Shown in pieces: positions 7,028 through 50,642 of a stretch of 64,000 nt of DNA. Numbering within the stretch: the first letter of the stretch is position 1; each line of letters begins with the position of its first letter. Origin of the DNA: Mycolicibacterium sp. HK-90 (GTDB taxonomy: Bacteria; Actinomycetota; Actinomycetes; Mycobacteriales; Mycobacteriaceae). The notes under the pieces were generated by a model. The model was not told the origin of the DNA and did no database searches. It was given only the letters and a program-made list of their open reading frames with translations. The translations under genes were made by a program, and so were the position numbers. The stretch covers positions 3,224,001 through 3,288,000 of the forward strand of contig NZ_CP129613.1 of the NCBI RefSeq assembly GCF_030486405.1, in the 5' to 3' direction.

Positions 7028-8460
7028 CCGACCGCATCACTCCGCGCCGCTCGATCGGAGTATGGGACCTGGTGTTTTTCGTCGTCGCTGCGGCCGCGCC
7101 ACTGGCGGTGATGTCGGGTGTCGCGCCGCTTGCCGTGATGTTCGGCGGCGTCGGCGCACCCGGCGGCTACCTGCTGGGCGGTATCGTCATGGCGATCTTC
7201 GCGGTCGGTTTCACCGCGATGAGCCGTCATGTCGACAGCCCGGGCGCGTTCTACGCGTACATATCGCGCGGGCTGGGCCGGACGGCCGGGCTGGGCGCGG
7301 CGTTCGTCGCGGTGTTGTCCTATGTGCTCATCGCCGTCAGTTTCGTCCCCGCGATCGGTGTCTTCGCCCACGACACCGCACTGTCACTGACCGGCCTCGA
7401 CATTCCCTGGCAGCTCTGGGCCGTCGCAGGTTGGCTCATCGTCGGCGCGCTCGGCTACATGAACATCACACTGAGCGCCAAAGTGCTCGGCGTGCTGCTG
7501 GGCCTGGAAGTTCTGGTGCTGGTGATGTTCGCGGTGCCGATTCTGGCCCAGGGTGGTGCTGAGGGGCTGAGTTTCGGCAGCTTCAACCCGGCGAACGTGT
7601 TCGGCCCCGGTGTGGGTGCGTTGTTCGTGTTGGCTTTCGGCGCCTTCCTTGGCTTCGAGTCGACCGCGATTTACAGCGAGGAAGCCAAGGACCCCAAACG
7701 TACTGTGCCGCAGTCGACTTACATCGCCGTCGGCTTTCTCGCACTGTTCTACACGGTGGTGTTGTGGGCGGCGATCATGGCCTACGGGCCGGAGCGCGCC
7801 GTAGAAGTGGCGACCCAAGATCCAACCGGAATGTTCTTCACTGCTACCGAACAGTGGTCGGGCACAGCAGTTTCCAACGCCATGCACGTGCTGATCGTTA
7901 CCAGCGCCCTGGCCGCGGCGCTGGCGTTCCACAACGCCAGCGCGCGTTACTTGTCGGCACTGGCTCAAGAGCGGGCACTGCCGTCCTGGCTCGGCCGCCG
8001 CACTCCGGCGGGTTCACCGGGTGCTGCCAGTCTCGCGGTCTCCGTGACCGCGGCGGTCATCGTCGTCGCCTTCACCCTCGCGGGTGCCGATCCGTACACC
8101 CAGACGTTCATCTGGCTGAACGCGATCGGTATCCCTGGCATCATCGGCCTGCAGGCGCTGTGCTCGGCGGCCGTGGTCGCCTTCTTCCGTCGCGACCCGC
8201 ACGGCCACGGGGTCTTCACCCGGCTCATCGCACCGACCGTTGCCACCGTGGCGCTGGCCGGCACGGTGATCCTCATCGTCGTGAACTACGACCTGCTCAC
8301 CGGGGCCGACGGAGTCACCAACACGGTGCTGCTGCTGATACTGCCGGTGACGTTCCTGGTGGGTGTGCTCGTCGCCCGCATGATGCGTGCGCGACGGCCC
8401 GCGGACTACCACCAGCTGGCCACCGTGCGCCCGGATGAGCCGACGAGCGTCGGTTCATGA
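7024..8460 (+). CDS. APC-superfamily amino acid permease
   Basis: 478 residues with about twelve hydrophobic segments. The first segment region has the APC-type glycine/alanine-rich stretch, and FGAFLGFESTAIYSEEAKDPKRTVP is the typical E-E-A/x-x-x-P block after helix 6. It should import an amino acid or related cation/zwitterion. ATGA overlap with the amidohydrolase gene upstream and with the small membrane gene downstream shows translational coupling in the LacI-controlled operon. Confidence 0.88.
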   Translation: MTDRITPRRSIGVWDLVFFVVAAAAPLAVMSGVAPLAVMFGGVGAPGGYLLGGIVMAIFAVGFTAMSRHVDSPGAFYAYISRGLGRTAGLGAAFVAVLSYVLIAVSFVPAIGVFAHDTALSLTGLDIPWQLWAVAGWLIVGALGYMNITLSAKVLGVLLGLEVLVLVMFAVPILAQGGAEGLSFGSFNPANVFGPGVGALFVLAFGAFLGFESTAIYSEEAKDPKRTVPQSTYIAVGFLALFYTVVLWAAIMAYGPERAVEVATQDPTGMFFTATEQWSGTAVSNAMHVLIVTSALAAALAFHNASARYLSALAQERALPSWLGRRTPAGSPGAASLAVSVTAAVIVVAFTLAGADPYTQTFIWLNAIGIPGIIGLQALCSAAVVAFFRRDPHGHGVFTRLIAPTVATVALAGTVILIVVNYDLLTGADGVTNTVLLLILPVTFLVGVLVARMMRARRPADYHQLATVRPDEPTSVGS

Positions 8461-8831
8461 ATCCGTTCGTGACGGCGGGCGTACTCGAGCTCACCGCGGG
8501 CGTTTTGACCGGCTGGCTGATGGTGGCGGCCGGATCCGAAGCATGGCGAAACAGGCTGCGGCTGGCCGACACTCGCCGGATCCGTCAAGGACACCTCGAG
8601 CTGTTGATGATGGGCGCGATCCTGGTCGCGCTGGGGGCCGCCGACCTGCACCTGCCCGCAGCGGCGACGGTGCTCATCATCAGCGGGTCGTGGATCGCTC
8701 CAGTCTTGTTCTTTCCGCTGGCCTGGAATCCCGCGCTGGGGGACTGCCGCCCGTTGAACTGGCTCGATCGCGCCGGATTCGTCATGCTCACGGTGGGTTA
8801 TCTCACCGCTGCCGTGACGGTGATCAGGTGA
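8457..8831 (+). CDS. Small hypothetical membrane protein
   Basis: 124 residues, four hydrophobic segments, no motif that I recognise. It overlaps the permease stop codon by 4 bp, so it is the last gene of the LacI-controlled amidohydrolase operon. It might be an accessory membrane component or unrelated to transport; the sequence alone does not decide. Confidence 0.7.
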   Translation: MNPFVTAGVLELTAGVLTGWLMVAAGSEAWRNRLRLADTRRIRQGHLELLMMGAILVALGAADLHLPAAATVLIISGSWIAPVLFFPLAWNPALGDCRPLNWLDRAGFVMLTVGYLTAAVTVIR

Positions 8832-8856
8832 GAACAATTGCTGAACCTGCGACGCG

Positions 8857-8933
8857 TGGTGCCCTCGGTGAGATTCGAACTCACACTGTACGGGTTTTGA
8901 ATCCGTTTCCTCTGCCAGTTGGGATACGAGGGC
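8857..8933 (-). tRNA. tRNA-Leu (CAA anticodon), class I shape, CCA encoded
   Basis: On the minus strand the acceptor stem GCCCTCG (8933-8927) pairs with CGAGGGC (8867-8861), followed by discriminator A and an encoded CCA (8859-8857). The T arm is GTGAG/CTCAC around TTCGAAT. The anticodon loop reads TTCAAAA, giving CAA, which decodes the leucine codon TTG. The variable region is only about 5 nt, unlike the long arm of normal bacterial leucine tRNAs, and the anticodon stem ends in an A-C mismatch. In M. tuberculosis a tRNA-Leu(CAA) gene also lies beside Rv1626, as I recall it, which agrees with the neighbour here. Confidence 0.85.
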
Positions 8934-9016
8934 GTCCCGATCGGTACTGCGGCCTACCACCATAGAGGATGGCCCCGCGGTCGCCGAACAGCGGCCTCCA
9001 CGACACAATGTTCCCC

Positions 9017-9643
9017 ATGACCGGCTCACCGACAGACGCTGACCGACCCCGCCGTGTGCTCGTGGCCGAGGACGAAGCGCTCATCCGCCTCGATCTCGCC
9101 GAGATGCTCCGTGAGGAGGGCTACGAGGTGGTCGGTGAGGCCGGCGACGGTCAGGAGGCCGTCGAGCTCGCCGAGGCCCTGCGCCCGGACCTGGTGATCA
9201 TGGACGTGAAGATGCCGCGCCGCGACGGCATCGATGCCGCCTCGGAGATCGCCAGCAAGCGCATCGCCCCCATCGTGATCCTCACCGCGTTCAGCCAGCG
9301 GGAGTTGGTGGAGCGGGCCCGGGACGCCGGGGCGATGGCGTACCTGGTCAAGCCCTTCAACATCACCGATCTGGTGCCCGCCATCGAGGTGGCGGTCAGC
9401 CGGTTCAGCGAGATCGCCGCATTGGAGAACGAGGTGGCGACGCTGGGCGACCGGCTGGAGACCCGCAAGCTGGTGGAGCGGGCCAAGGGTTTGCTGCAGA
9501 GCAAGCATCAGATGACCGAGCCCGAGGCGTTCAAGTGGATTCAGCGGGCCGCGATGGACCGCAGAACCACCATGAAACGGGTGGCCGAGGTGGTCCTGGA
9601 AACCCTCGAGGACGCCGAGGAAGAACCGGCCCAAGAGAACTGA
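9017..9643 (+). CDS. pdtaR: Two-component response regulator with ANTAR RNA-binding domain (Rv1626/PdtaR type)
   Basis: 208 residues from ATG 9017; this start reproduces the MTG-start of Rv1626, whereas an upstream in-frame ATG at 8969 adds an unlike extension. Receiver domain residues 10-125 with the acidic pair in VAEDEALIRLD, the phosphoacceptor Asp in VIMDVKMPR, the conserved Thr in ILTAFS and Lys in YLVKPF. The C-terminal ANTAR domain (ERAKGLLQSKHQMTEPEAF, then RRTTMKRVAEVVLE) binds paired hexaloop RNA hairpins in target mRNAs and antiterminates transcription. In M. tuberculosis PdtaR works with the kinase PdtaS, encoded elsewhere, and controls genes such as PE/PPE and heme/nitric-oxide response genes. 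Confidence 0.96.
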   Translation: MTGSPTDADRPRRVLVAEDEALIRLDLAEMLREEGYEVVGEAGDGQEAVELAEALRPDLVIMDVKMPRRDGIDAASEIASKRIAPIVILTAFSQRELVERARDAGAMAYLVKPFNITDLVPAIEVAVSRFSEIAALENEVATLGDRLETRKLVERAKGLLQSKHQMTEPEAFKWIQRAAMDRRTTMKRVAEVVLETLEDAEEEPAQEN

Positions 9644-9648
9644 TCGAC

Positions 9649-9684
9649 CGGCCCGGTTGTTAATTGTGGGTTTCTGCCGGGCCG
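9649..9684 (+). terminator. Possible weak terminator after pdtaR
   Basis: An 8-bp perfect inverted repeat, CGGCCCGG at 9649-9656 and CCGGGCCG at 9677-9684, with a 20-nt loop directly after the pdtaR stop codon. No T-run follows, so termination efficiency is uncertain. Confidence 0.35.
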
Positions 9685-9841
9685 ATATTGCGCGTTCAGC
9701 CAGTACGCGCTGCAGCAGCATTCCCTCAACATCCCGCACTCGGGCCGGTGGTTGGCTATGTTCTACCCCGAAGCTCCGGCGCCCACCCTTCAGAAGGTCA
9801 GGGCGCCGGTGCCGCTGACTACTCTGACCCGGAGGTGAAGC

Positions 9842-11056
9842 GTGCGCGGTCGCGTGGCACGGAAAGCATTTGCTCTCGGAAGTGCGGGTGTGGTTGCGCT
9901 GGCGATTGCCGGCTGTAACCAGTCCGCGCCGGGGGGAGGCGAGGCATCGCCGACCGATTTGAAGATCGTCGAGAAGGTCCAGATCGACGAGAACGGTGCC
10001 GAGGTCAAGGCCGCCGAGGGCGTCACGCCGGCCGATCCGGCGGGTGACGGCAAGGCCACCTGCCCGCCGGTGATGATCGGCATGATGGGCGCCCTCAACG
10101 GTCCGGACGCGGCCCTGGGCATCAACATCAAGAACGGTGTGCAGCTCGCGATCGACAAGCACAATGCCGCCAATCCCGGTTGCCAGGTGCAGCTCAAGAG
10201 CTTTGACACCGAGGGCGACCCGCAGAAGGCCACGGGTGTGGCACCGCAGATCGTCGACGAGCCGTTCATCATCGGTCTGGTCGGGCCTGCCTTCTCCGGG
10301 GAGACCAAGGCCACCGGCGATGTCTTCAACCAGGCCGGCCTGGTGGCCGCCACCGCATCGGCCACCAACGTCACGTTGAGCGAGAACGGGTGGCGGACCT
10401 TCTTCCGGGGCCTGGCCAACGACGGTGTCCAGGGCCCCTCGGTCGCCAATTACCTCAAGAACACGCTGGGTCACAAGAAGGTCTGTGTGGTCGACGACAG
10501 CACCGACTACGGGCTCGGGCTGGCCGAGGCGGTGCGCGAAACCCTTGGCCCGGTGGCTGATTCGGCGTGCAACATCTCGGTGAAGAAGGGCGACAAGGAG
10601 TTCTCGGCCGCGGTCACCCAGATCAAGGGGGCCGCTCCGGAGTCGGTGTTCTACAGCGGCTACTACTCCGAGGCCGCGCCGTTCGTGCAGCAGCTCAAGG
10701 ACGGTGGTGTGACGGCGACGTTCGTCAGCGCCGACGGCACCAAGGATCCCGAGTTCGTCAAGCAGGCCGGCGGGTCGTCGCAGGGCTCGTTGCTGTCCTG
10801 CCCGTGCGGTCCGGCGTCCGGGGCGTTCGCCGACGAGTACACCCAGAAGTTCGGCCAGGCACCCGGCACGTACAGCACCGAGGGCTATGACCTCGGCACG
10901 ATCCTGCTCAAGGGCATCGACTCCGGTGCGATCACCCGGCCCGCACTGTTGGACTTCGTCCGCAAGTACGACGGCCAGGGCGTGGCCCGCAAGTACCAGT
11001 GGACGGACAAGGGTGAGCTGACCACCACTCTGATCTGGATGTACGAAGTCCAGTAG
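9842..11056 (+). CDS. livJ: Branched-chain amino acid ABC transporter, substrate-binding lipoprotein
   Basis: 404 residues from GTG 9842, with Shine-Dalgarno GGAGGTGA at 9831-9838. The N-terminus is a lipoprotein signal peptide with lipobox LAIAGC (Cys near residue 24). The rest is a type I periplasmic-binding fold of the LivJ/K family (VMIGMMGALNGPDAALGIN; VGPAFSGETKATG; FYSGYYSEAAPFVQQL). Role: capture of leucine/isoleucine/valine or a related amino acid outside the membrane and delivery to LivHM. It heads the liv cluster; a long perfect hairpin separates it from livH, which would allow more binding protein than permease to be made. Confidence 0.9.
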   Translation: MRGRVARKAFALGSAGVVALAIAGCNQSAPGGGEASPTDLKIVEKVQIDENGAEVKAAEGVTPADPAGDGKATCPPVMIGMMGALNGPDAALGINIKNGVQLAIDKHNAANPGCQVQLKSFDTEGDPQKATGVAPQIVDEPFIIGLVGPAFSGETKATGDVFNQAGLVAATASATNVTLSENGWRTFFRGLANDGVQGPSVANYLKNTLGHKKVCVVDDSTDYGLGLAEAVRETLGPVADSACNISVKKGDKEFSAAVTQIKGAAPESVFYSGYYSEAAPFVQQLKDGGVTATFVSADGTKDPEFVKQAGGSSQGSLLSCPCGPASGAFADEYTQKFGQAPGTYSTEGYDLGTILLKGIDSGAITRPALLDFVRKYDGQGVARKYQWTDKGELTTTLIWMYEVQ

Positions 11057-11063
11057 CCACCAG

Positions 11064-11108
11064 GCGAAACGCGTCCGAGACCGGCACCAGGACTCGGACG
11101 CGTTTCGC
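11064..11108 (+). terminator. Perfect 16-bp stem-loop between livJ and livH
   Basis: GCGAAACGCGTCCGAG at 11064-11079 and CTCGGACGCGTTTCGC at 11093-11108 are exact reverse complements with a 13-nt loop. It begins 7 bp after the livJ stop. No long T-run follows, so it is more likely a partial (intercistronic) terminator or an mRNA 3'-end stabiliser than a full stop. Confidence 0.75.
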
Positions 11109-11139
11109 TTCCACACACGGAGTCAGGAGCCGCCACCGG

Positions 11140-12177
11140 ATGATCCACCAGTGCGTCGAGCAGTCCGCCTGCCTGGCAGCCAATATCAGCTTCAACCTGG
11201 ACGGCCTGCGAGACGGCTTCTGGCAGTTGACGATCGACGGCCTGTCCTGGGGCGCGATCTACGCGCTGGTGGCGGTGGGCTACACCCTGGTCTTCGGCGT
11301 GCTGCGCCTGATCAACTTCGCCCATTCCGAGATCTTCATGCTCGGCATGTTCGGCGCGTACTTCTGCCTGGACGTGATCCTGGGCTTCACGCCGAGCGGC
11401 AACGCCTACAACAAGGGCATCGCGCTGACGGTGCTGTACCTCGGGATCGCGATGCTGTTCGCGATGCTGGTCTCGGGGTCGGCCGCAGTCGGTCTGGAGC
11501 TGGTCGCGTACCGGCCGCTGCGCAAGCGCAACGCCCGCGCCCTGACCTTCCTCATCACCGCGATCGGCATGTCGTTCGTGCTGCAGGAGTTCGTGCACTT
11601 CGTGCTGCCGAAGCTGATGAAGGGCTACGGCGGAAGCAACGCGCAACAACCGATCGTCCTGGTCCAGCCGAAGGCCCAGTTCACGATTTTCGGCGCCACG
11701 GTTTCGAACGTGACGCTGGTGATCGTGGGCGCGGCGCTGGTGCTCGCGCTGCTGACCGACATCGCCATCAACCGCACCAAGTTCGGCCGCGGTATCCGCG
11801 CTGTGGCCCAGGATCCGACCACTGCCACGTTGATGGGCGTCTCCCGGGAACGCATCATCATGCGGACGTTCCTCATCGGTGGTCTGCTGGCCGGCGCCGC
11901 GGCGCTGCTCTACACGCTGAAGGTGCCGCAGGGCATCATCTACTCGGGCGGCTTCCTGCTCGGCATCAAGGCATTCTCGGCGGCGGTGCTCGGCGGCATC
12001 GGCAATCTCCGCGGAGCCCTGCTGGGCGGTCTGCTGCTCGGAATCATGGAGAACTACGGACAGGCCGTGTTCGGGACCCAGTGGCGCGACGTCGTCGCGT
12101 TCGTGCTGCTGGTGCTGGTGCTGCTGTTCCGGCCGACCGGCATACTCGGTGAAAGCCTCGGGAAGGCGCGGGTATGA
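11140..12177 (+). CDS. livH: Branched-chain amino acid ABC transporter permease LivH
   Basis: 345 residues, about eight hydrophobic segments. LivH-type features: GAIYALVAVGYTLVFGVLRLINFAH at the start of the membrane domain (NFAH is the family hallmark), and the conserved cytoplasmic loop GRGIRAVAQDPTTATLMG that contacts the ATPase. Compared with typical LivH (about 290-310 residues) it carries a longer N-terminus and a long first loop. Start at ATG 11140, preceded by CAGGAG. Overlaps livM by 4 bp. Confidence 0.93.
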   Translation: MIHQCVEQSACLAANISFNLDGLRDGFWQLTIDGLSWGAIYALVAVGYTLVFGVLRLINFAHSEIFMLGMFGAYFCLDVILGFTPSGNAYNKGIALTVLYLGIAMLFAMLVSGSAAVGLELVAYRPLRKRNARALTFLITAIGMSFVLQEFVHFVLPKLMKGYGGSNAQQPIVLVQPKAQFTIFGATVSNVTLVIVGAALVLALLTDIAINRTKFGRGIRAVAQDPTTATLMGVSRERIIMRTFLIGGLLAGAAALLYTLKVPQGIIYSGGFLLGIKAFSAAVLGGIGNLRGALLGGLLLGIMENYGQAVFGTQWRDVVAFVLLVLVLLFRPTGILGESLGKARV

Positions 12178-26978: not shown

Positions 26979-27032
26979 TGGCGGACCTCCTGGTTGCTGG
27001 CTGGGCTGTGGGCGCGTGTGAGCGGCATCACT

Positions 27033-27070
27033 ACTATACGACGACGTATATTCAATACAAGAATGAATAT
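27033..27070. promoter_or_regulatory. Rieske promoter with TetR-type operators
   Basis: On the minus strand TTGTAT (27060-27055), a 16-bp spacer and TATAGT (27038-27033) make a good promoter for the Rieske gene. A palindrome with perfect half-sites, TATACG-ACGA-CGTATA (27035-27050), overlaps the spacer and -10 box. A second inverted repeat, ATATTCA (27048-27054) and TGAATAT (27064-27070), overlaps the -35 region. This is the classical layout for a repressor such as the adjacent TetR protein. Confidence 0.7.
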
Positions 27071-45054: not shown

Positions 45055-45987
45055 TCAGATCTGCCAGTCGTTCGCCCCGTCTGGCTGGGTGTAGACGCCG
45101 ACCGAGTTCTTGACGACTACCGGGTCGCCACTGCCGAAGTTGTCGAAGAACCATTGGGCGTTCTCGGGGCTGAGGTTCGGGCAGCCGTGGCTGACATTGC
45201 GCTTGCCCTGATCGGCGACCGACCAGGGGGCGCTGTGCACGAAAATGCCGCCGTTGCTGAGGCGCACCGCGTTCTTGACCTTGAGTCGGTAGCCTTCGGC
45301 CGAATTCACGGGGACGCCATAGGTTGACGAGTCCATGACGATGTCGGAGAACTTCTCCAGGACGTAATAGGTGCCGTTGGGTGTTTCGTAGCCAGGCTTC
45401 CCCAGGGACACGGGAAAAGTCTTCTCCAGCCGGCCGTTACGGTGAACCTGCATCTGGTGAGTCGCGTCATCGATCGTGGCCACCACCGAATCGCCCACGC
45501 GGAAGCTGGACTTCGTGCCGGCCGCGTCAATGTTGACCACTGCGCCTGCCGGCCAGAAATCAATTGGCCGCCAACGGACCTGAGTGTCACTCATCCAATA
45601 GAACTTGCCGGGCACCGGTGGGTTGGAGGAGATGTGGATGGCATCTTCGGCCAGTTGACGGTCGGCGATGGGCTGCTGGAACGTGACGTAAATCGGCTTT
45701 GCCACGCCGACCATCGAGCCGTTGGCCGGATTGAACACGGGCGGCAGGAACGGCGGCCGGCCGGTGAAAGGTAGTGGGTTCTGCCCGACCGGGATTCCGG
45801 GGCTGGCCATCTCGCCGGCCGACGTTCCGAAAGGTAGCGGCGGCGACCCGAGGTGTGATGCCGGCTCGGCGGGCTGCGGTGATCCGTCGGGCTCGGCCAG
45901 CGCGGAAGTGGCGGCGGCCGTTGATGCGCCGAGCATCACGGTCGCGACGATCGCGGTGATCCACAGGGGTCTGCTGGGGTGCTGCAC
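45055..45987 (-). CDS. L,D-transpeptidase (YkuD) with Ig-like domain
   Basis: 310 residues from GTG 45987, preceded by GGAGG. An uncleaved or cleaved signal segment lies at residues 8-31 ([22 protein letters not shown]). A Pro-rich linker leads to an Ig-like domain (about 95-175) and a YkuD domain with the catalytic motif SHGCPNLS (Cys269) and the upstream His in IFVHSAPWS. It forms 3-3 cross-links in peptidoglycan and is of the carbapenem-sensitive enzyme class. Shorter than LdtB (Rv2518c) of M. tuberculosis. The upstream region is shared with a multicopper oxidase and holds repeated TACGTA-type palindromes. Confidence 0.93.
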
Positions 45988-46060
45988 GAGGCCTCCATCG
46001 ACGAGTTGTCGTTGACGACCGCGCCCGATCGGGCGGATCCACAACCTTGTCCGACACAGT

Positions 46061-46128
46061 CTACTAGTTACGTACGTGGATAGTAGGTAGGTGAGCTCGC
46101 TCACTGGTTACGTGCGTACGTAGTTACC
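46061..46128. promoter_or_regulatory. Divergent Ldt / multicopper oxidase control region with repeated TACGTA motifs
   Basis: Contains GTTACGTACGT (46067-46077) and GTTACGTGCGTACGT (46107-46121) as direct repeats, an inverted GTGAG-CTCG-CTCAC (46091-46104), and, on the minus strand, TAACTACGTACGC (46126-46114). The ACTACGTA core recurs before the blaI-type gene and the NlpC/P60 gene. It lies 74-140 bp before the transpeptidase start and 145-210 bp before the oxidase start. Confidence 0.55.
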
Positions 46129-46272
46129 CAATACGGCCTAGCTCAGTAACCCGGTGCGGGCTTCTTCAACGAACCTTCACACAACCCATACCGATTCCCT
46201 GTTCTCCGGTAGCCATGGTGGAGGCGAGGCCGTACGCCGACGGCCACGTACGAACACTGGAGAGCCCACGTC

Positions 46273-47775
46273 ATGCCCGAGATCGCCAACCCACCGTCTG
46301 TCAGTCGTCGCGGCTTCCTCGTGGCCACCGCTGCGCTGGGTGCGACAGCGGTCGCGGGTTGCGGTCGCGACGCGGGCGCGTCGAGCACCGCGGCCCCCCG
46401 TGATGCGATTGCCGCGGTTGAGGCCCGTCGCCCACACAGTGGCCGCACCGTGTCCACCACCCTGACCGCACAGCGCACGCGCGTGGATCTCGGCGGCACC
46501 GTTGCCGACACGATCGCCTACAACGATGTCGTGCCCGGGCCGCTCCTGCGGGCGTCGGTCGGAGACGAACTGGAGATCACGGTGCGCAACCGGCTCGGCC
46601 GACCGACCTCGATGCACTGGCACGGCATCGCTCTCCGCAACGACATGGACGGAGCGTCACCTGCCACCCCCGACATCCCCGACGGCCGGGATTTCACCTA
46701 CCGGTTCTCGGTGCCTCATCCGGGTACGTACTGGGCCCATCCGCACACGGGGCTGGATGCCGATACCGGCTTGTACTTCCCGGTGATCGTCGACGACCCG
46801 AACGACCCGGGCCGCTACGACGAGGAGTGGGTGGTGATGCTCGACGACTGGACCGACGGCGTCGGTTCGAGCCCGGCCCAGATATATGACCGTCTGCGCA
46901 AGACCTCGGGAGCCGGGCACCATATGCCCGGGATGGGAGAGATGCCGGGCATGGGTGGTGGAGGCCGGGCGCCACTGGGCGGCGACGCCGGTGACGTCGA
47001 CTATCCGATGTACGTGATCAACGGCCGTGATCCCAGGAATCCCACCAGTTTTCGGGTACGACCTGGGCAGCGAGTGCGGATCCGGTTGATCAACGCCGGA
47101 TCCGACACCGCGTTCCGGGTGGCACTGGCCGGGCACCGCATGACCGTCACCCACACGGACGGTTTCCCGGTCGTTCCCACCGAGGTGGATGCGCTGCTGA
47201 TCGGGATGGGTGAGCGCTACGACGTCGTCGTCACCGCACGAGATGGAGTGTTCCCACTGGTGGCCGCCGCGGAGGGCAAGAATGCATCGACACGGGCCCT
47301 GTTGGTGACCGCCGCGGGCACGAATCCGCCGCTCGACTTCGCGCCGCGGGAGTTGCGCGGCCGACTCGGCACGGTCGGATCATTCAGCGCGCCGCCGGAA
47401 GCGTCGTTCGACTCCACACCGGCTGATGCCGAACTACCCGTCGAGCTGGGCGGTTCGATGGCGAACTATCGGTGGACGATCAATGGTCGGGCATTCGCAC
47501 AGGCACAGCCACTCGCCGTGCGCGAAGGGCAGCGCGTCGCCCTGACTTTCCGGAACTCGACGATGATGTGGCATCCGATGCATCTGCACGGACACACGTT
47601 TCAGGTTGTCGGCGCCGACAACCGTCCGGGCGCACGCAAGGACACGGTGGCCGTCCTGCCGATGCAGAAGCTTCGCGTGATATTCGACGCCGACAACCCC
47701 GGAGTATGGATGTTGCACTGCCACAACACCTATCACCAGGAGGCGGGCATGATGACCACCCTCGACTACCGATGA
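46273..47775 (+). CDS. Multicopper oxidase, Tat-exported lipoprotein
   Basis: 500 residues. Tat signal SRRGFLVATAALGATAVAGC, with the Cys as likely lipidation site. All four copper-ligand blocks are present: HWHG, HPH (in WAHPHTGL), HPMHLHGH and HCHNTYHQEAGM (type 1 axial Met). A His/Met-rich loop (HHMPGMGEMPGMGGG) lies near residue 220, as in copper-tolerance oxidases of the CueO and MmcO kind. Predicted to oxidise Cu(I) or phenolic/metal substrates outside the membrane. Divergent from the L,D-transpeptidase and followed by the blaI-type operon. Confidence 0.93.
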   Translation: MPEIANPPSVSRRGFLVATAALGATAVAGCGRDAGASSTAAPRDAIAAVEARRPHSGRTVSTTLTAQRTRVDLGGTVADTIAYNDVVPGPLLRASVGDELEITVRNRLGRPTSMHWHGIALRNDMDGASPATPDIPDGRDFTYRFSVPHPGTYWAHPHTGLDADTGLYFPVIVDDPNDPGRYDEEWVVMLDDWTDGVGSSPAQIYDRLRKTSGAGHHMPGMGEMPGMGGGGRAPLGGDAGDVDYPMYVINGRDPRNPTSFRVRPGQRVRIRLINAGSDTAFRVALAGHRMTVTHTDGFPVVPTEVDALLIGMGERYDVVVTARDGVFPLVAAAEGKNASTRALLVTAAGTNPPLDFAPRELRGRLGTVGSFSAPPEASFDSTPADAELPVELGGSMANYRWTINGRAFAQAQPLAVREGQRVALTFRNSTMMWHPMHLHGHTFQVVGADNRPGARKDTVAVLPMQKLRVIFDADNPGVWMLHCHNTYHQEAGMMTTLDYR

Positions 47776-47787
47776 CTGCCATAGGGG

Positions 47788-47800
47788 AGTACTACGTACT
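47788..47800. promoter_or_regulatory. ACTACGTA palindrome upstream of the blaI-type gene
   Basis: AGTAC-TAC-GTACT, a 13-bp palindrome that contains ACTACGTA, 90 bp upstream of the blaI-type GTG start. The ribosome site GGAGGGG is at 47880-47886. Resembles sites at 46114-46126 and 50533-50545. Confidence 0.5.
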
Positions 47801-47890
47801 GACCTAACCAGTAGCATCCGTGCCCGCGTCGGGCCGTGGTATGCGCCTCGCTCCGAGGTAGTCTCAGAAGACCGATCGTGGAGGGGTGCA

Positions 47891-48280
47891 GTGCGGGTAC
47901 GAGGATTTGGCGAACTCGAGGCCGACATCATGGATCGCATCTGGAACCGCGATCCCGCGGCCGTCACCGTGCGTGAGGTGTTCGATGAGCTCTCCCGTGA
48001 GCGCCGCATCGCCTACACCACCGTGATGTCCACGATGGACAATCTGCATACCAAAGGGTGGCTGGAGCGTGACCGTGACGGCCGGGCCTACCGCTATTGG
48101 GCCACGTTGAACCGCGAGCAGCACACGGCCCGATTGATGCGCGAGGCACTCGACGGCGGGGGCCGCTCCGATCTGGTGCTCAGTTACTTCATCGAGCAGA
48201 TCGATCCGCAGGACTCCGACCGCTTGCGGGCCGCGCTCCGCACCTTGGCCAGACGGTCTTCGAGGGCGAAGAAGCAGTGA
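47891..48280 (+). CDS. BlaI/MecI/CopY-family repressor
   Basis: 129 residues from GTG 47891 with Shine-Dalgarno GGAGGGG. The penicillinase-repressor winged helix is clear: FGELEADIMDRIWNRDPAAVTVREVFDEL, then IAYTTVMSTMDNLHTKGWLERDRDGRAYRY (both in parts). The C-terminal helices serve for dimerisation and would be cut by the partner protease. Paired with an M56 protease gene through a 4-bp overlap, as Rv1846c/Rv1845c in M. tuberculosis. Such repressors respond to beta-lactams, cell-wall damage or copper. Confidence 0.94.
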   Translation: MRVRGFGELEADIMDRIWNRDPAAVTVREVFDELSRERRIAYTTVMSTMDNLHTKGWLERDRDGRAYRYWATLNREQHTARLMREALDGGGRSDLVLSYFIEQIDPQDSDRLRAALRTLARRSSRAKKQ

Positions 48281-49215
48281 ATGTTGCCGCGGGCCTGCTG
48301 ATCTACAGCGCGGCGATGGTGGTGCTGGCACCGCCGCTGCTCGGTGCCCTGACCCGCGGCGGGTCGGCTCCGAGGTTCGGTGTGGCGGTGTGGCTCATCG
48401 CGATCGTCAGTGTGTTGGCCACCTGGGTTGCGATTCCCGCACTGATCCTGGCCGACGTGGTGTTCCACGATGGCCGACGCGGGTCGTTGCTGTCTTCCTG
48501 TGTGCGATTCCTCTGTGAACTCGCGGCCGGACGGGTGGGCATCGCGGCGCAGCTGACGGTGGTGGCCGTCGCAGTCGGCCTGCTCGCGGCCGGGACCGGT
48601 GTGGCGATCAGGGTGGCCGGCACCATTCGGCGACTGCACGCCCACGCTCATGACCACGCGCAAGCGGTGCGGCTCGTCGGACGTCCCGCCGGGCAGCCCG
48701 ATGTCTTCATCGTCGACTCCGGTGAGCGCACCGCCTACTGCGTGGCGGGTCGGCCTCCGGCGATCGTGGTCACCAGTGGTGCGCTGGCCGCGCTGGACCG
48801 GGACGGCTTGCAGGCGGTACTGGCCCATGAGCGGGCGCACCTGGATGGGCACCATCCGGCGATCGTGACCGCCCTGCGCGGATTGGCCACGGTCTTCCCC
48901 CGGATGAAGCTGATCACCAGTGGGGCCCGCGAGATCCCACGGCTGTTGGAGATGTGCGCCGACGATGCCGCGGTGCGCCACCACGGGCAGCACCCGCTCC
49001 TGACGGGGTTGATGGCCCTCGCGGGGGCGACGCCGGCCCAAGCCCTTGGCGCCGCCGATGTGGCGTTGCTGAGCCGTGCCGAGCGTCTGGTGCTTCCTCC
49101 GGCCGCATGGTCACGGATCAGCACCCGGGTGGGTCTCTGCGGTGCGATGACCGTGATTTTCCTGGTACCGGTCGCGACCTTCGTGCTGGGCACGTCGGGT
49201 CTGTTCTGCCGCTGA
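48277..49215 (+). CDS. M56-family membrane protease (BlaR1-like, without sensor domain)
   Basis: 312 residues from GTG 48277 (GTGA overlap with the repressor gene). Three hydrophobic segments, then a cytoplasmic gluzincin domain with the zinc motif HERAH in VLAHERAHLDGHH and a later acidic ligand in EMCADDAAV, and a last transmembrane segment near the C-terminus. Unlike staphylococcal BlaR1/MecR1 there is no penicillin-binding sensor domain, as is usual for the actinobacterial short forms. Likely cleaves or inactivates the adjacent repressor after an unknown signal. Confidence 0.92.
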   Translation: MNVAAGLLIYSAAMVVLAPPLLGALTRGGSAPRFGVAVWLIAIVSVLATWVAIPALILADVVFHDGRRGSLLSSCVRFLCELAAGRVGIAAQLTVVAVAVGLLAAGTGVAIRVAGTIRRLHAHAHDHAQAVRLVGRPAGQPDVFIVDSGERTAYCVAGRPPAIVVTSGALAALDRDGLQAVLAHERAHLDGHHPAIVTALRGLATVFPRMKLITSGAREIPRLLEMCADDAAVRHHGQHPLLTGLMALAGATPAQALGAADVALLSRAERLVLPPAAWSRISTRVGLCGAMTVIFLVPVATFVLGTSGLFCR

Positions 49216-49217
49216 CG

Positions 49218-49655
49218 TCAGTGCTCGCGGTCGAAAAGCACCAGCGTGTCGACCAGGTTGCCGTCGACGAAATAGGCCCGGCAGGTGAAGGGGTCGTGGA
49301 TCGTGCTGCCGACCTCGGTCTGGGCCTCAACCGTTCCGGAGACATTCCATACGGTGATACGTGACTGATCCACACCCTTGAGCGGTTCATCGGTGGTCAG
49401 CGCGAACAGGTCACGACTGTCGGGCTCGAGATCGGCGACCGTCGCCTGCACGCCAGCAAGCTGTGCGGTCTGCGGTGACGCCAACTTGCCCCGTACATCT
49501 GTTTCGCAGCGGTCCTGCACTGCCCGTTCCGTCGTGTTCGTGACACCGAAGACGTTGGTTTTCACCGCGATTGCCGCGATGACGCCGACGATGACGGCAC
49601 ATGCCAGCAGCCACATCCGGGCCCGCGGCCTGTTCGGAGATGGCTGGTGACGCAT
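49218..49655 (-). CDS. Hypothetical membrane-anchored protein
   Basis: 145 residues from ATG 49655. A short cytoplasmic Arg/Pro-rich N-terminus, one transmembrane segment (LLACAVIVGVIAAIAV, about 16-31) and an extracytoplasmic domain with two cysteines (DRCETD; FTCRAYF). No family recognised. It converges with the M56 gene, 2 bp apart. Confidence 0.7.
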   Translation of the reverse strand: MRHQPSPNRPRARMWLLACAVIVGVIAAIAVKTNVFGVTNTTERAVQDRCETDVRGKLASPQTAQLAGVQATVADLEPDSRDLFALTTDEPLKGVDQSRITVWNVSGTVEAQTEVGSTIHDPFTCRAYFVDGNLVDTLVLFDREH

Positions 49656-49733
49656 GTCCACACCTTTCCCGATTCCTGGTCCTGGCAAACCATACAACGA
49701 CGGTGCGCCACGCCAAGCCGGGCCGTCACGCGG

Positions 49734-50468
49734 TCAGTATTCGATGATGCGCGTGACGAACGGCGTCATTCCCGACGTGCGAACGGGCGAGATCTTGACC
49801 GGGACACCGGTCTGCTGTGCCTCGAGCATCTGACCACCGCCGAGGTAGAGCGCTTCGTGCTGCCCGCCACCGGGCCCCCAGAACAGCAGGTCACCGCGCT
49901 TGGCCTGGGACGGCGGCAGCTGACGGCCCGCGGTGTACTGGTCGCCTGAGTAGCGGGGGAGCAGGATGCCGACACCGGCGAACGCGTACCGGACGAGCCC
50001 GGAGCAGTCGAAACCGACGGTGTTGGCGCCAGAGTCGACTCCGCGGCTCGGGCCGGTGAGACTGCCGCCGCCCCAGGAGTAGGGCACGCCGAGTTGGCTG
50101 CCGGCCCGCCGGATGACGTACTCGACCGCCTGTCTGCCATACACCCGGTTGACGCGAAGGGCGGGGCCCGTGGCACCGGAGTCTGCGGGCACAAGTCCCA
50201 GGCTCCCCAGGAACTTTCGGCCCAGGTCGAAGGTCGTCTGTGCGGCCCGCGCGCTTGCCTGCAACGAGGCGTTGGCGATGGCGACCGGATCTCCGGGGGC
50301 GCCTGCGCTCAGCAGGTTGGGCAGCGTGGGATCCCACTGGCCGGCCGTGGGATCGGCGTGCGCGACAGGCGCTCCCATCGAGGCCAGCGACACGGCCGCC
50401 AAAAGTCCGGTGCGCAACACGGTTCGACGATTCCAGGGGGTGGGCGTTGCGCGCGCAGGTGAAGCCAT
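49734..50468 (-). CDS. NlpC/P60-family peptidoglycan hydrolase
   Basis: 244 residues. Signal peptide at 1-38 with an NRRTVLRTGLL start (Tat-like) and AHA cleavage site. The C-terminal NlpC/P60 domain has the catalytic Cys155 in VGFDCSGLVRYAF, His204 in GGQHEALYLG and a third polar residue after it. The layout recalls the mycobacterial RipD protein, whose catalytic residues are changed in M. tuberculosis; here Cys and His are intact, so activity as D,L-endopeptidase is expected. Its promoter contains a long inverted repeat. Confidence 0.92.
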   Translation of the reverse strand: MASPARATPTPWNRRTVLRTGLLAAVSLASMGAPVAHADPTAGQWDPTLPNLLSAGAPGDPVAIANASLQASARAAQTTFDLGRKFLGSLGLVPADSGATGPALRVNRVYGRQAVEYVIRRAGSQLGVPYSWGGGSLTGPSRGVDSGANTVGFDCSGLVRYAFAGVGILLPRYSGDQYTAGRQLPPSQAKRGDLLFWGPGGGQHEALYLGGGQMLEAQQTGVPVKISPVRTSGMTPFVTRIIEY

Positions 50469-50518
50469 GGTGGCCTCCCTCCCGCGTAGGCTCGGCGGTC
50501 GACGTGTCCGAGCCGGGC

Positions 50519-50549
50519 ACGTACCTACGTAATAACTACGTAGGTACGT
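50519..50549. promoter_or_regulatory. Long perfect inverted repeat upstream of the NlpC/P60 gene
   Basis: Two 13-bp exact arms, ACGTACCTACGTA (50519-50531) and TACGTAGGTACGT (50537-50549), around a 5-bp ATAAC spacer. ACTACGTA is at 50535-50542. It lies 51 bp upstream of the start codon, where a repressor site would be expected. It may bind two repressor dimers. Confidence 0.65.
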
Positions 50550-50642
50550 ACTCTATACCTCAGTAGTCACAGGCGTCCCATCAGTTACCAAATCACAACA
50601 TTGCGAGGCGATCACCAACCGATTCCGCGCACCGCCCTGTTG

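Follow-up and report, generated by a model that had tools for sequence, protein, structure and literature searches.

Gene content of the accessory BlaI locus

We analysed a 64,000-nucleotide stretch of the Mycolicibacterium sp. HK-90 chromosome (contig NZ_CP129613.1, positions 3224001-3288000 of a one-contig genome of 6,488,666 bases; hereafter the window) which carries, at window positions 45055..50549, a six-gene island containing the genes for a BlaI-type repressor and its partner membrane metalloprotease. A first-pass annotation of this sequence had listed an L,D-transpeptidase (LDT), a multicopper oxidase, a BlaI repressor with a membrane protease and an NlpC/P60 endopeptidase within 5.5 kb, and had proposed that a BlaI regulon joins them. 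Our analysis bears out this gene set and adds a small open reading frame (ORF) that had been left unmentioned. We propose that the island is a chromosomal instance of a regulon that recurs, in part on plasmids, under an accessory BlaI and its partner protease. The island is bounded by a TrpB-like gene and a zinc-type alcohol dehydrogenase gene, and its GC content (66.1%) is close to that of its surroundings (window 66.2%).

The product of ldt (45055..45987, minus strand) combines Pfam Big_10 and YkuD domains with a catalytic SHGC motif, which places it in the LdtMt2 class, in agreement with the gene call and with LdtMt2 relatives in the PDB. Although the ORF is readable from 46104, the likelier start is the GTG at 45987, with GGAGG ahead of it and a signal peptide behind it; the predicted operator of this region therefore lies upstream of ldt and not inside it. 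The divergent gene, mco (46273..47775, plus strand), encodes a multicopper oxidase with three Cu-oxidase Pfam domains, a twin-arginine signal with a lipobox, HWH, HPH, HLH and HCH motifs and a Met-rich insert; it scores below the cut-off for CopA-type oxidases (TIGR01480, 293.5 versus 478.95 bits). The repressor gene blaI (47891..48280, plus strand, GTG start) encodes a 129-residue protein that lacks cysteine and matches the Penicillinase_R winged-helix domain (PF03965, 86 bits, cut-off 22.6). It is overlapped by the gene for an M56-type membrane metalloprotease (48277..49215, plus strand) with a HERAH motif and four transmembrane-like stretches by hydropathy, so that blaI has the adjoining HEXXH membrane metalloprotease gene expected of the BlaI/MecI family. 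The sole Pfam match of the protease is Peptidase_M48, its homologs carry the M56 annotation, no penicillin-binding or beta-lactam sensor domain of the BlaR1 type was detected by Pfam, and the protein stops at its last transmembrane-like stretch.

The small ORF (49218..49697, minus strand) encodes a putative membrane-anchored or secreted protein of unassigned family, with no Pfam or NCBIfam match. ORFs of this type recur in related islands, often near RipA or RipB genes (6/33 island loci versus 0/20 control loci, p 0.07), and a role as partner of the endopeptidases is possible. The last gene, ripB (49734..50468, minus strand), encodes a RipB-type NlpC/P60 endopeptidase, identified by a match to NF033742 above its cut-off (374 versus 335 bits) and by the catalytic Cys155 in FDCSG. 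Both ldt and ripB are extra copies in this genome, the nearest ldt paralog being 72% identical and the other ripB copies 61-65%. In a relative (G021, BlaI 94% identical) the order of all six genes is identical and the two flanking genes are the same, while both ends of the island (L051) carry additional sequence. The window is not near-identical to a known plasmid: megablast returned nine plasmid records, all at 73-76% identity and over the oxidase part only.

A predicted 17-bp operator accompanies accessory BlaI

The regulon had first been proposed from three ACTACGTA-centred palindromes. All three copies of ACTACGTA are present where they had been placed, and their number in the window is beyond chance (0.13 expected; three reached in 0/100 shuffles), although it is TACGTA, and not ACTACGTA itself, that is palindromic. 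A genome-wide scan showed the 8-mer to be unspecific (21 places versus 51 for a backwards control, with 9 of the 18 sites outside the window lying within called genes), and we rejected it as the operator. ACTACGTA is a fragment of a longer element. Equal frequency inside genes, proposed at the outset as grounds for abandoning the motif, is not what we observed for TACGTA: across 43 loci (42 accessory-BlaI island loci and the core-BlaI locus) its density was 0.71 per kb in sequence not called as coding and 0.03 per kb in called genes, the noncoding fraction being overstated because our simple gene caller omits genes (61-86% called coding). In the same loci TACGTA pairs were most often spaced 11 bp apart (29 of the 59 distinct pairs separated by no more than 60 bp). 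For 153 of 219 distinct noncoding TACGTA sites in the window and 42 other loci, either TAC precedes or the mirrored GTA follows at a distance of exactly 11 bp, and no site has both; the other TAC offsets listed accounted for 0 to 44 of the 219. This exact spacing indicates that the element is a dyad of two half-sites, a 17-bp sequence TACKWW-N5-TACGTA, i.e. TAC(G/T)(A/T)(A/T)-N5-TACGTA, with the half-sites about one helical turn apart.

Two such operators are predicted in the island. Operator 1, in the divergent ldt/mco region (46069..46085, minus strand), reads TACTATCCACGTACGTA on the minus and TACGTACGTGGATAGTA on the plus strand, is some 90 bp away from the likely start of ldt and some 200 bp from that of the oxidase gene, and is conserved in G021. 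Operator 2, upstream of ripB (50526..50542), reads TACGTAATAACTACGTA and is centred ~66 bp before the ATG; it is overlapped by an extension, TACGTAGGTACGTA (50537..50550), that adjoins TAGAGT, which we take to be a TANNNT-type -10 element. A position weight matrix (PWM) trained on island loci other than the window and loci L051 and L071-L073 scored the ripB operator at 32.0, the ldt operator at 19.0 and the blaI promoter at 10.4, with a peak of 14.4 in 20 simulated windows. Of the sites first read as operators, the third thus overlaps the ripB operator, but the ldt/mco operator is 29 bases outside the first, an isolated TACGTA (46117..46122) that is conserved in G021 and weak as an operator (PWM 3.3). 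Before blaI lies a block, TACTACGTACT..CCTA...AGTAG (47790..47813; PWM 10.4), that is conserved in a related species and is possibly a weak autoregulatory site.

On these predictions, inclusion of ldt and ripB in a BlaI-type regulon is strongly supported. The claim that both the cross-linking enzyme and the oxidase are controlled is thus supported for the former, together with the endopeptidase, and the oxidase is possibly included because it shares its divergent intergenic region with ldt. In G021 a second strong operator (PWM 28.3) lies on the oxidase side; its window equivalent, TACGGCCTAGCTCAGTA (46132..46148), is degenerate, keeping TAC-N11-GTA and scoring 5.1. An operator was found no more than 350 bp upstream of two among five island oxidase genes, which by position are those of the window and of its G021 ortholog.

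The dyad pattern is close to exclusive to accessory-BlaI islands. In the 6.49-Mb genome it occurs at four places (one match for the backwards control), all within two such islands: at ldt/mco and ripB in the window, 38 bp before a second accessory blaI (genome position 1590441), and at the LDT gene of that second island. The two islands account for five of the six genome places with exact TACGTA pairs at most 25 bp apart. In a survey of 60 genomes of the same genus, with accessory BlaI defined as a best E below 1e-30 and per-genome presence of the dyad taken from the full table, the dyad was present in 25/26 genomes with accessory BlaI versus 6/34 without (Fisher 3e-10), and the strict form TACGTA-N5-TACGTA in 19/26 versus 4/34. 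Positions were taken from the matches listed, and distances from eight of the 26 genomes, chosen for having BlaI and the sites on one chromosome-sized contig. Among the matches listed, 38 of 41 dyad sites had an accessory BlaI match no more than 16 kb away when weak BlaI matches are counted, and no more than 44 kb away when only those below 1e-30 are; for the remaining three the distance was 158-966 kb. Four of the six genomes with the dyad and without accessory BlaI (G001, G036, G038 and G051) share an identical TACGTTAATGTTACGTA site among the matches listed, apparently an unrelated conserved element.

Over 604 kb of islands (32 loci, 28 of which were also training loci) the PWM found 142 operators; over 392 kb of control sequence taken from elsewhere in their genomes it found none. 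Five loci held out from training contained 11 operators, none within a called gene, and operators inside called genes were 0/76 in ten plasmid loci and 1/142 in the 32 genome loci. Distinct operators numbered 71/76 and 133/142, respectively; L069 and L112 are apparently the same plasmid, and L049, L052 and L107 are close relatives. One off-island site in the window (27032-27048, PWM 14.4) was not counted as an operator. It is a TATACGACGACGTATA palindrome between Rieske-type oxygenase-like and TetR-like genes, fronts the latter, and is probably a TetR operator.

Predicted operator targets in related islands

Relatives of the window BlaI were found in 103 of 72,556 plasmid records, in 44 of which the match spans 80% or more of the query; Rhodococcus, Mycolicibacterium and Mycobacterium are among the hosts. 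Between them, ten plasmid islands carry copper/heavy-metal ATPases, CopC and DUF305 genes, sometimes with oxidases or mercury and arsenic genes, and an envelope complement of LDTs, RipA/B/C, M23, TlpA/thioredoxin, CcsB/ResB/CcdA, ctaD/CtaG, Lnt and LspA. In the annotated plasmid islands an operator lay within 300 bp upstream of 21/38 wall, 14/26 thiol/envelope, 7/16 respiratory, 2/50 metal, 8/25 regulator, 0/15 M56 and 10/68 other genes. Wall, thiol/envelope and respiratory genes were enriched for operators over metal genes (Fisher 2e-9), with classes assigned by us and lspA placed under thiol/envelope although it is no thiol enzyme. This table covers 238 of 344 features, the 106 left out being hypothetical, mobile-element and some named genes.

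A similar pattern emerged from 33 genome loci classified by BLAST, counting operators within 350 bp upstream. Operator-rich classes were NlpC/P60 (18/20), thioredoxin-like (15/18), LDT (15/22) and ctaD (5/5); operator-poor classes were Cu-ATPase (3/17, with genes present in 12/33 loci), DUF305 (1/9), M23 (0/8) and CopC (1/3). Counts for ResB and the small ORF were 1/1 and 2/6. Across relatives, the operator-bearing genes thus encode chiefly reactive-cysteine extracytoplasmic enzymes (LDTs, NlpC/P60 and thioredoxin/TlpA-like proteins) and cytochrome oxidase subunit I, and the metal-resistance genes beside them mostly lack an operator. Since NlpC/P60 and M23 enzymes are both wall hydrolases, the targeting of the cysteine-dependent former and not of the zinc-dependent latter argues that active-site vulnerability, rather than the wall as such, unites the targets. 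We scanned three of seven genes annotated as 'Ig-like'; all three encode LDTs with YkuD, as does the LDT gene of the second island.

That second island (L071, G000:C1:1581001-1601000, about 7199-12093) encodes OsmC, a DsbA-like thioredoxin, a CcdA-like protein, BlaI, an M56 protease and a Big_10-YkuD LDT. Its operators score 22.9, 15.5 and 30.0, and no oxidase or copper gene was recognised among the called genes examined. On two Rhodococcus plasmids (L113 and L114), additional copies of lnt, lspA and ctaD, and in L113 of resB/ccsB, accompany BlaI/M56 in metal islands, and some of these genes are operator-bearing.

The window BlaI is distinct from the core, Rv1846c-type BlaI

We rejected the window BlaI as the ortholog of M. 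tuberculosis Rv1846c: it matches the Rv1846c structure (2g9w) with 66.6 bits, versus 231.3 bits for another copy in this genome at position 3520192, which is likely the ortholog. Five small BlaI loci were examined, four of the core type, and the latter all carry TACGAC-N5-GTAGTA on the upstream side of blaI. This element has the TAC-N11-GTA geometry of the accessory operator and different inner bases. The classical cop box has the spacing TAC-N4-GTA, which was not found in any of the five loci. The window BlaI and its 52% paralog both carry AYTTVMSTMDNL where core BlaI has AYTTIMTVLQRL, a position that, by MecI/BlaI, we take to be in the recognition-helix region, and the promoters linked to these two paralogs have a common operator type. 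Like recognition helices would thus go with like operators, which points to BlaI as the protein that binds them.

Genome-wide, the core pattern occurs at seven places, versus four for the backwards control. Of the places matching TACKAC-N5-GTMGTA (L140, L143 and L144), one precedes cydA by 32 bp, one is situated between a DUF5134 and a Caa3_CtaG gene, and one lies 307 bp ahead of AtpI/ATP-synthase genes and overlaps the end of the preceding gene; another place is the blaI promoter. The core pattern perhaps marks a respiratory core regulon in this genome. In M. tuberculosis, Rv1303/atp is a BlaI target by electrophoretic mobility shift assay (PMC12565901), and SigC, a member of the BlaI regulon, acts in copper acquisition (PMC8265638, PMC7924339), so a link between BlaI and copper is not unprecedented.

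Proposed function and alternative explanations

We favor, with some confidence, a model in which copper or other thiophilic metals poison envelope enzymes, a mobile BlaI/protease regulon re-supplies them and the oxidase meanwhile detoxifies Cu(I). BlaI dimers on the 17-bp TAC-N11-GTA operators at the ldt and ripB promoters would keep the spare copies silent; a membrane signal would activate the protease, BlaI would be removed and the target genes would be turned on, repression and release by proteolysis being taken from the BlaI family. Copper or a related stress would poison exposed cysteine enzymes, for which the regulon would provide replacements, and oxidase and pumps would lower the metal meanwhile. 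The genes, the operators, their exclusivity, their co-occurrence with accessory BlaI and the target classes can be read from the sequence; BlaI binding, proteolysis, an inducer and a benefit are what we infer.

Three lines of background lead to this re-supply model. Mycobacteria rely heavily on the 3-3 cross-links made by LDTs. Copper inhibits LDTs (V. cholerae LdtA), which no other tested metal salt did, and it lowers LD-crosslinking in several species (PMC11390936). In Corynebacterium glutamicum under copper, oxidase, TlpA and heme/cytochrome c maturation genes are raised (PMC3140484). The possible copper link raised in the first-pass annotation is supported by gene neighbourhood, although few metal-export genes have an operator. 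More tentatively, the plasmids and islands of mycobacteria and rhodococci could represent mobile target replacement, in which a dedicated BlaI/protease switch beside metal pumps deploys spare copies of targets that copper and other thiophilic metals would poison, namely LDT, NlpC/P60 and thioredoxin-like enzymes and ctaD.

Among the alternatives, the one that survives best, which we nevertheless consider unlikely, is that general extracytoplasmic thiol/redox stress (oxidants, electrophiles, any thiophilic metal) is the driver and copper is not specific. The second island, with OsmC, the DsbA-like and CcdA-like proteins and an LDT, and the mercury, cadmium and arsenic genes of plasmid islands are consistent with this, but the window carries a multicopper oxidase, CopC, ctaD and heavy-metal/copper ATPase genes recur in plasmid islands, and Cu-ATPase genes occur in over a third of the genome loci.

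We regard as improbable a classical wall-damage/beta-lactam switch, in which the protease senses beta-lactams or wall fragments, the LDT and RipB bypass penicillin-binding proteins (PBPs) and the copper genes are bystanders. Such a switch would fit the BlaI/M56 architecture, RIP and LDT genes as major operator targets, and the resistance of LDTs to most beta-lactams. However, neither Pfam nor hydropathy revealed a penicillin-binding sensor domain in the protease, M23 hydrolases are hardly targeted (0/8 in genome loci, 1/10 in plasmid islands), and thioredoxin-like and ctaD genes are targeted instead. Control of a beta-lactamase or PBP gene was not found at the four operator places of this genome, which flank ldt/mco, ripB, a blaI and an LDT gene, and no beta-lactamase gene adjoins them. 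The earlier suggestion that wall-damage signals act through BlaI is therefore unsupported, the protease lacking a detected sensor domain and the BlaI not being Rv1846c.

It is very unlikely that the operators belong to another island regulator, such as a CopRS-type two-component system. Several plasmid islands do encode a two-component pair, a sensor kinase with its response regulator, close to the oxidase gene. From ldt to ripB in the window, however, no regulator other than BlaI was recognised, and among the called genes examined the two islands of this genome have no other regulator in common. The core blaI promoter has the same geometry, and the direct repeat bound by CopR of C. glutamicum is TGAAGATTT (PMC3140484). 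That the TACGTA clusters reflect chance or low complexity, as restriction-site remnants or through promoter bias, is hardly credible: ACTACGTA also occurs within genes and is unenriched genome-wide, but the exact 11-bp spacing, the near-exclusivity to islands and the operator-free control sequence speak against them.

Several observations weigh against the re-supply model and the regulon on which it is built. Among the called genes examined in the two islands of this genome, no metal gene was recognised besides the window oxidase. The window blaI promoter lacks a canonical operator (10.4 versus a simulated maximum of 14.4). One TACGTA pair with a 10-bp spacing (genome position 6398377) belongs to neither island, and the sole site among the matches listed is 158 kb (G020) and 966 kb (G056) from accessory BlaI in two genomes. 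Given the backwards control (4 versus 7), some core-pattern places are chance. In the 33 genome loci no operator precedes CcdA (0/7), Lnt (0/3), CcsB (0/3) or CtaG (0/9) genes, some of which may be transcribed from an upstream gene, and 48/388 unclassified genes are also preceded by one. The target ctaD encodes no thiol enzyme. Finally, genomes and loci are interrelated, so the counts are not independent and the statistics ignore kinship.

If the re-supply model is correct, metal tolerance would be achieved by replacing poisoned envelope targets as well as by metal export and would be tied to wall cross-linking in mycobacteria, and a possible copper/beta-lactam interaction would become testable. 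The operator motif could then be used to predict this regulon in any mycobacterial genome. No description of such a regulon appeared among top-ranked titles and abstract openings, in a search whose coverage mostly excludes subscription papers.

Comparison with known systems

By description only, the islands resemble the transmissible locus of stress tolerance of Gram-negatives: both are mobile and carry spare housekeeping quality-control copies, but that locus serves proteostasis against heat and chlorine with different genes. The CopRS regulon of C. glutamicum likewise co-induces a multicopper oxidase, a thioredoxin-like TlpA and a copper ATPase, comparable to the sensor kinase/response regulator/multicopper oxidase segment of plasmid islands, but it is under two-component control with a different DNA motif, and no wall enzymes were found in the account of it in PMC3140484, whose main text contains neither 'blai' nor 'peptidoglycan'.

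With the staphylococcal BlaI-BlaR1 and MecI-MecR1 systems the island shares a Penicillinase_R repressor and a HEXXH membrane metalloprotease, but its protease has no detected penicillin-binding sensor domain and no beta-lactamase or PBP2a target was seen among its operators. The copper repressors CopY/TcrY belong to the same superfamily (TIGR02698) and copper neighbourhood as the window BlaI. However, CopY/TcrY have a C-terminal cysteine motif and a TACANNTGTA cop box, which the window operator is not, and we rejected membership because the cysteine-free protein scores 34.3 bits against a cut-off of 121.95.

Another parallel is with BlaI/Rv1846c-Rv1845c of M. tuberculosis, whose regulon Sala et al. 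reportedly defined in 2009. In both systems the genes for a BlaI-fold repressor and an M56-type protease form a tandem, TAC-N11-GTA lies upstream of the core blaI genes examined, and the Rv1846c system touches respiration (atp) too. The window BlaI is nevertheless a separate paralog, accessory and mobile, with other targets and with half-sites TACGTA/TACTAT where the core has TACGAC/TACTAC. Beta-lactam resistance is the main context in which BlaI regulons are known; the one proposed here would be accessory and mobile, with its own operator code, and would serve wall-cross-linking and thiol enzymes in metal islands.

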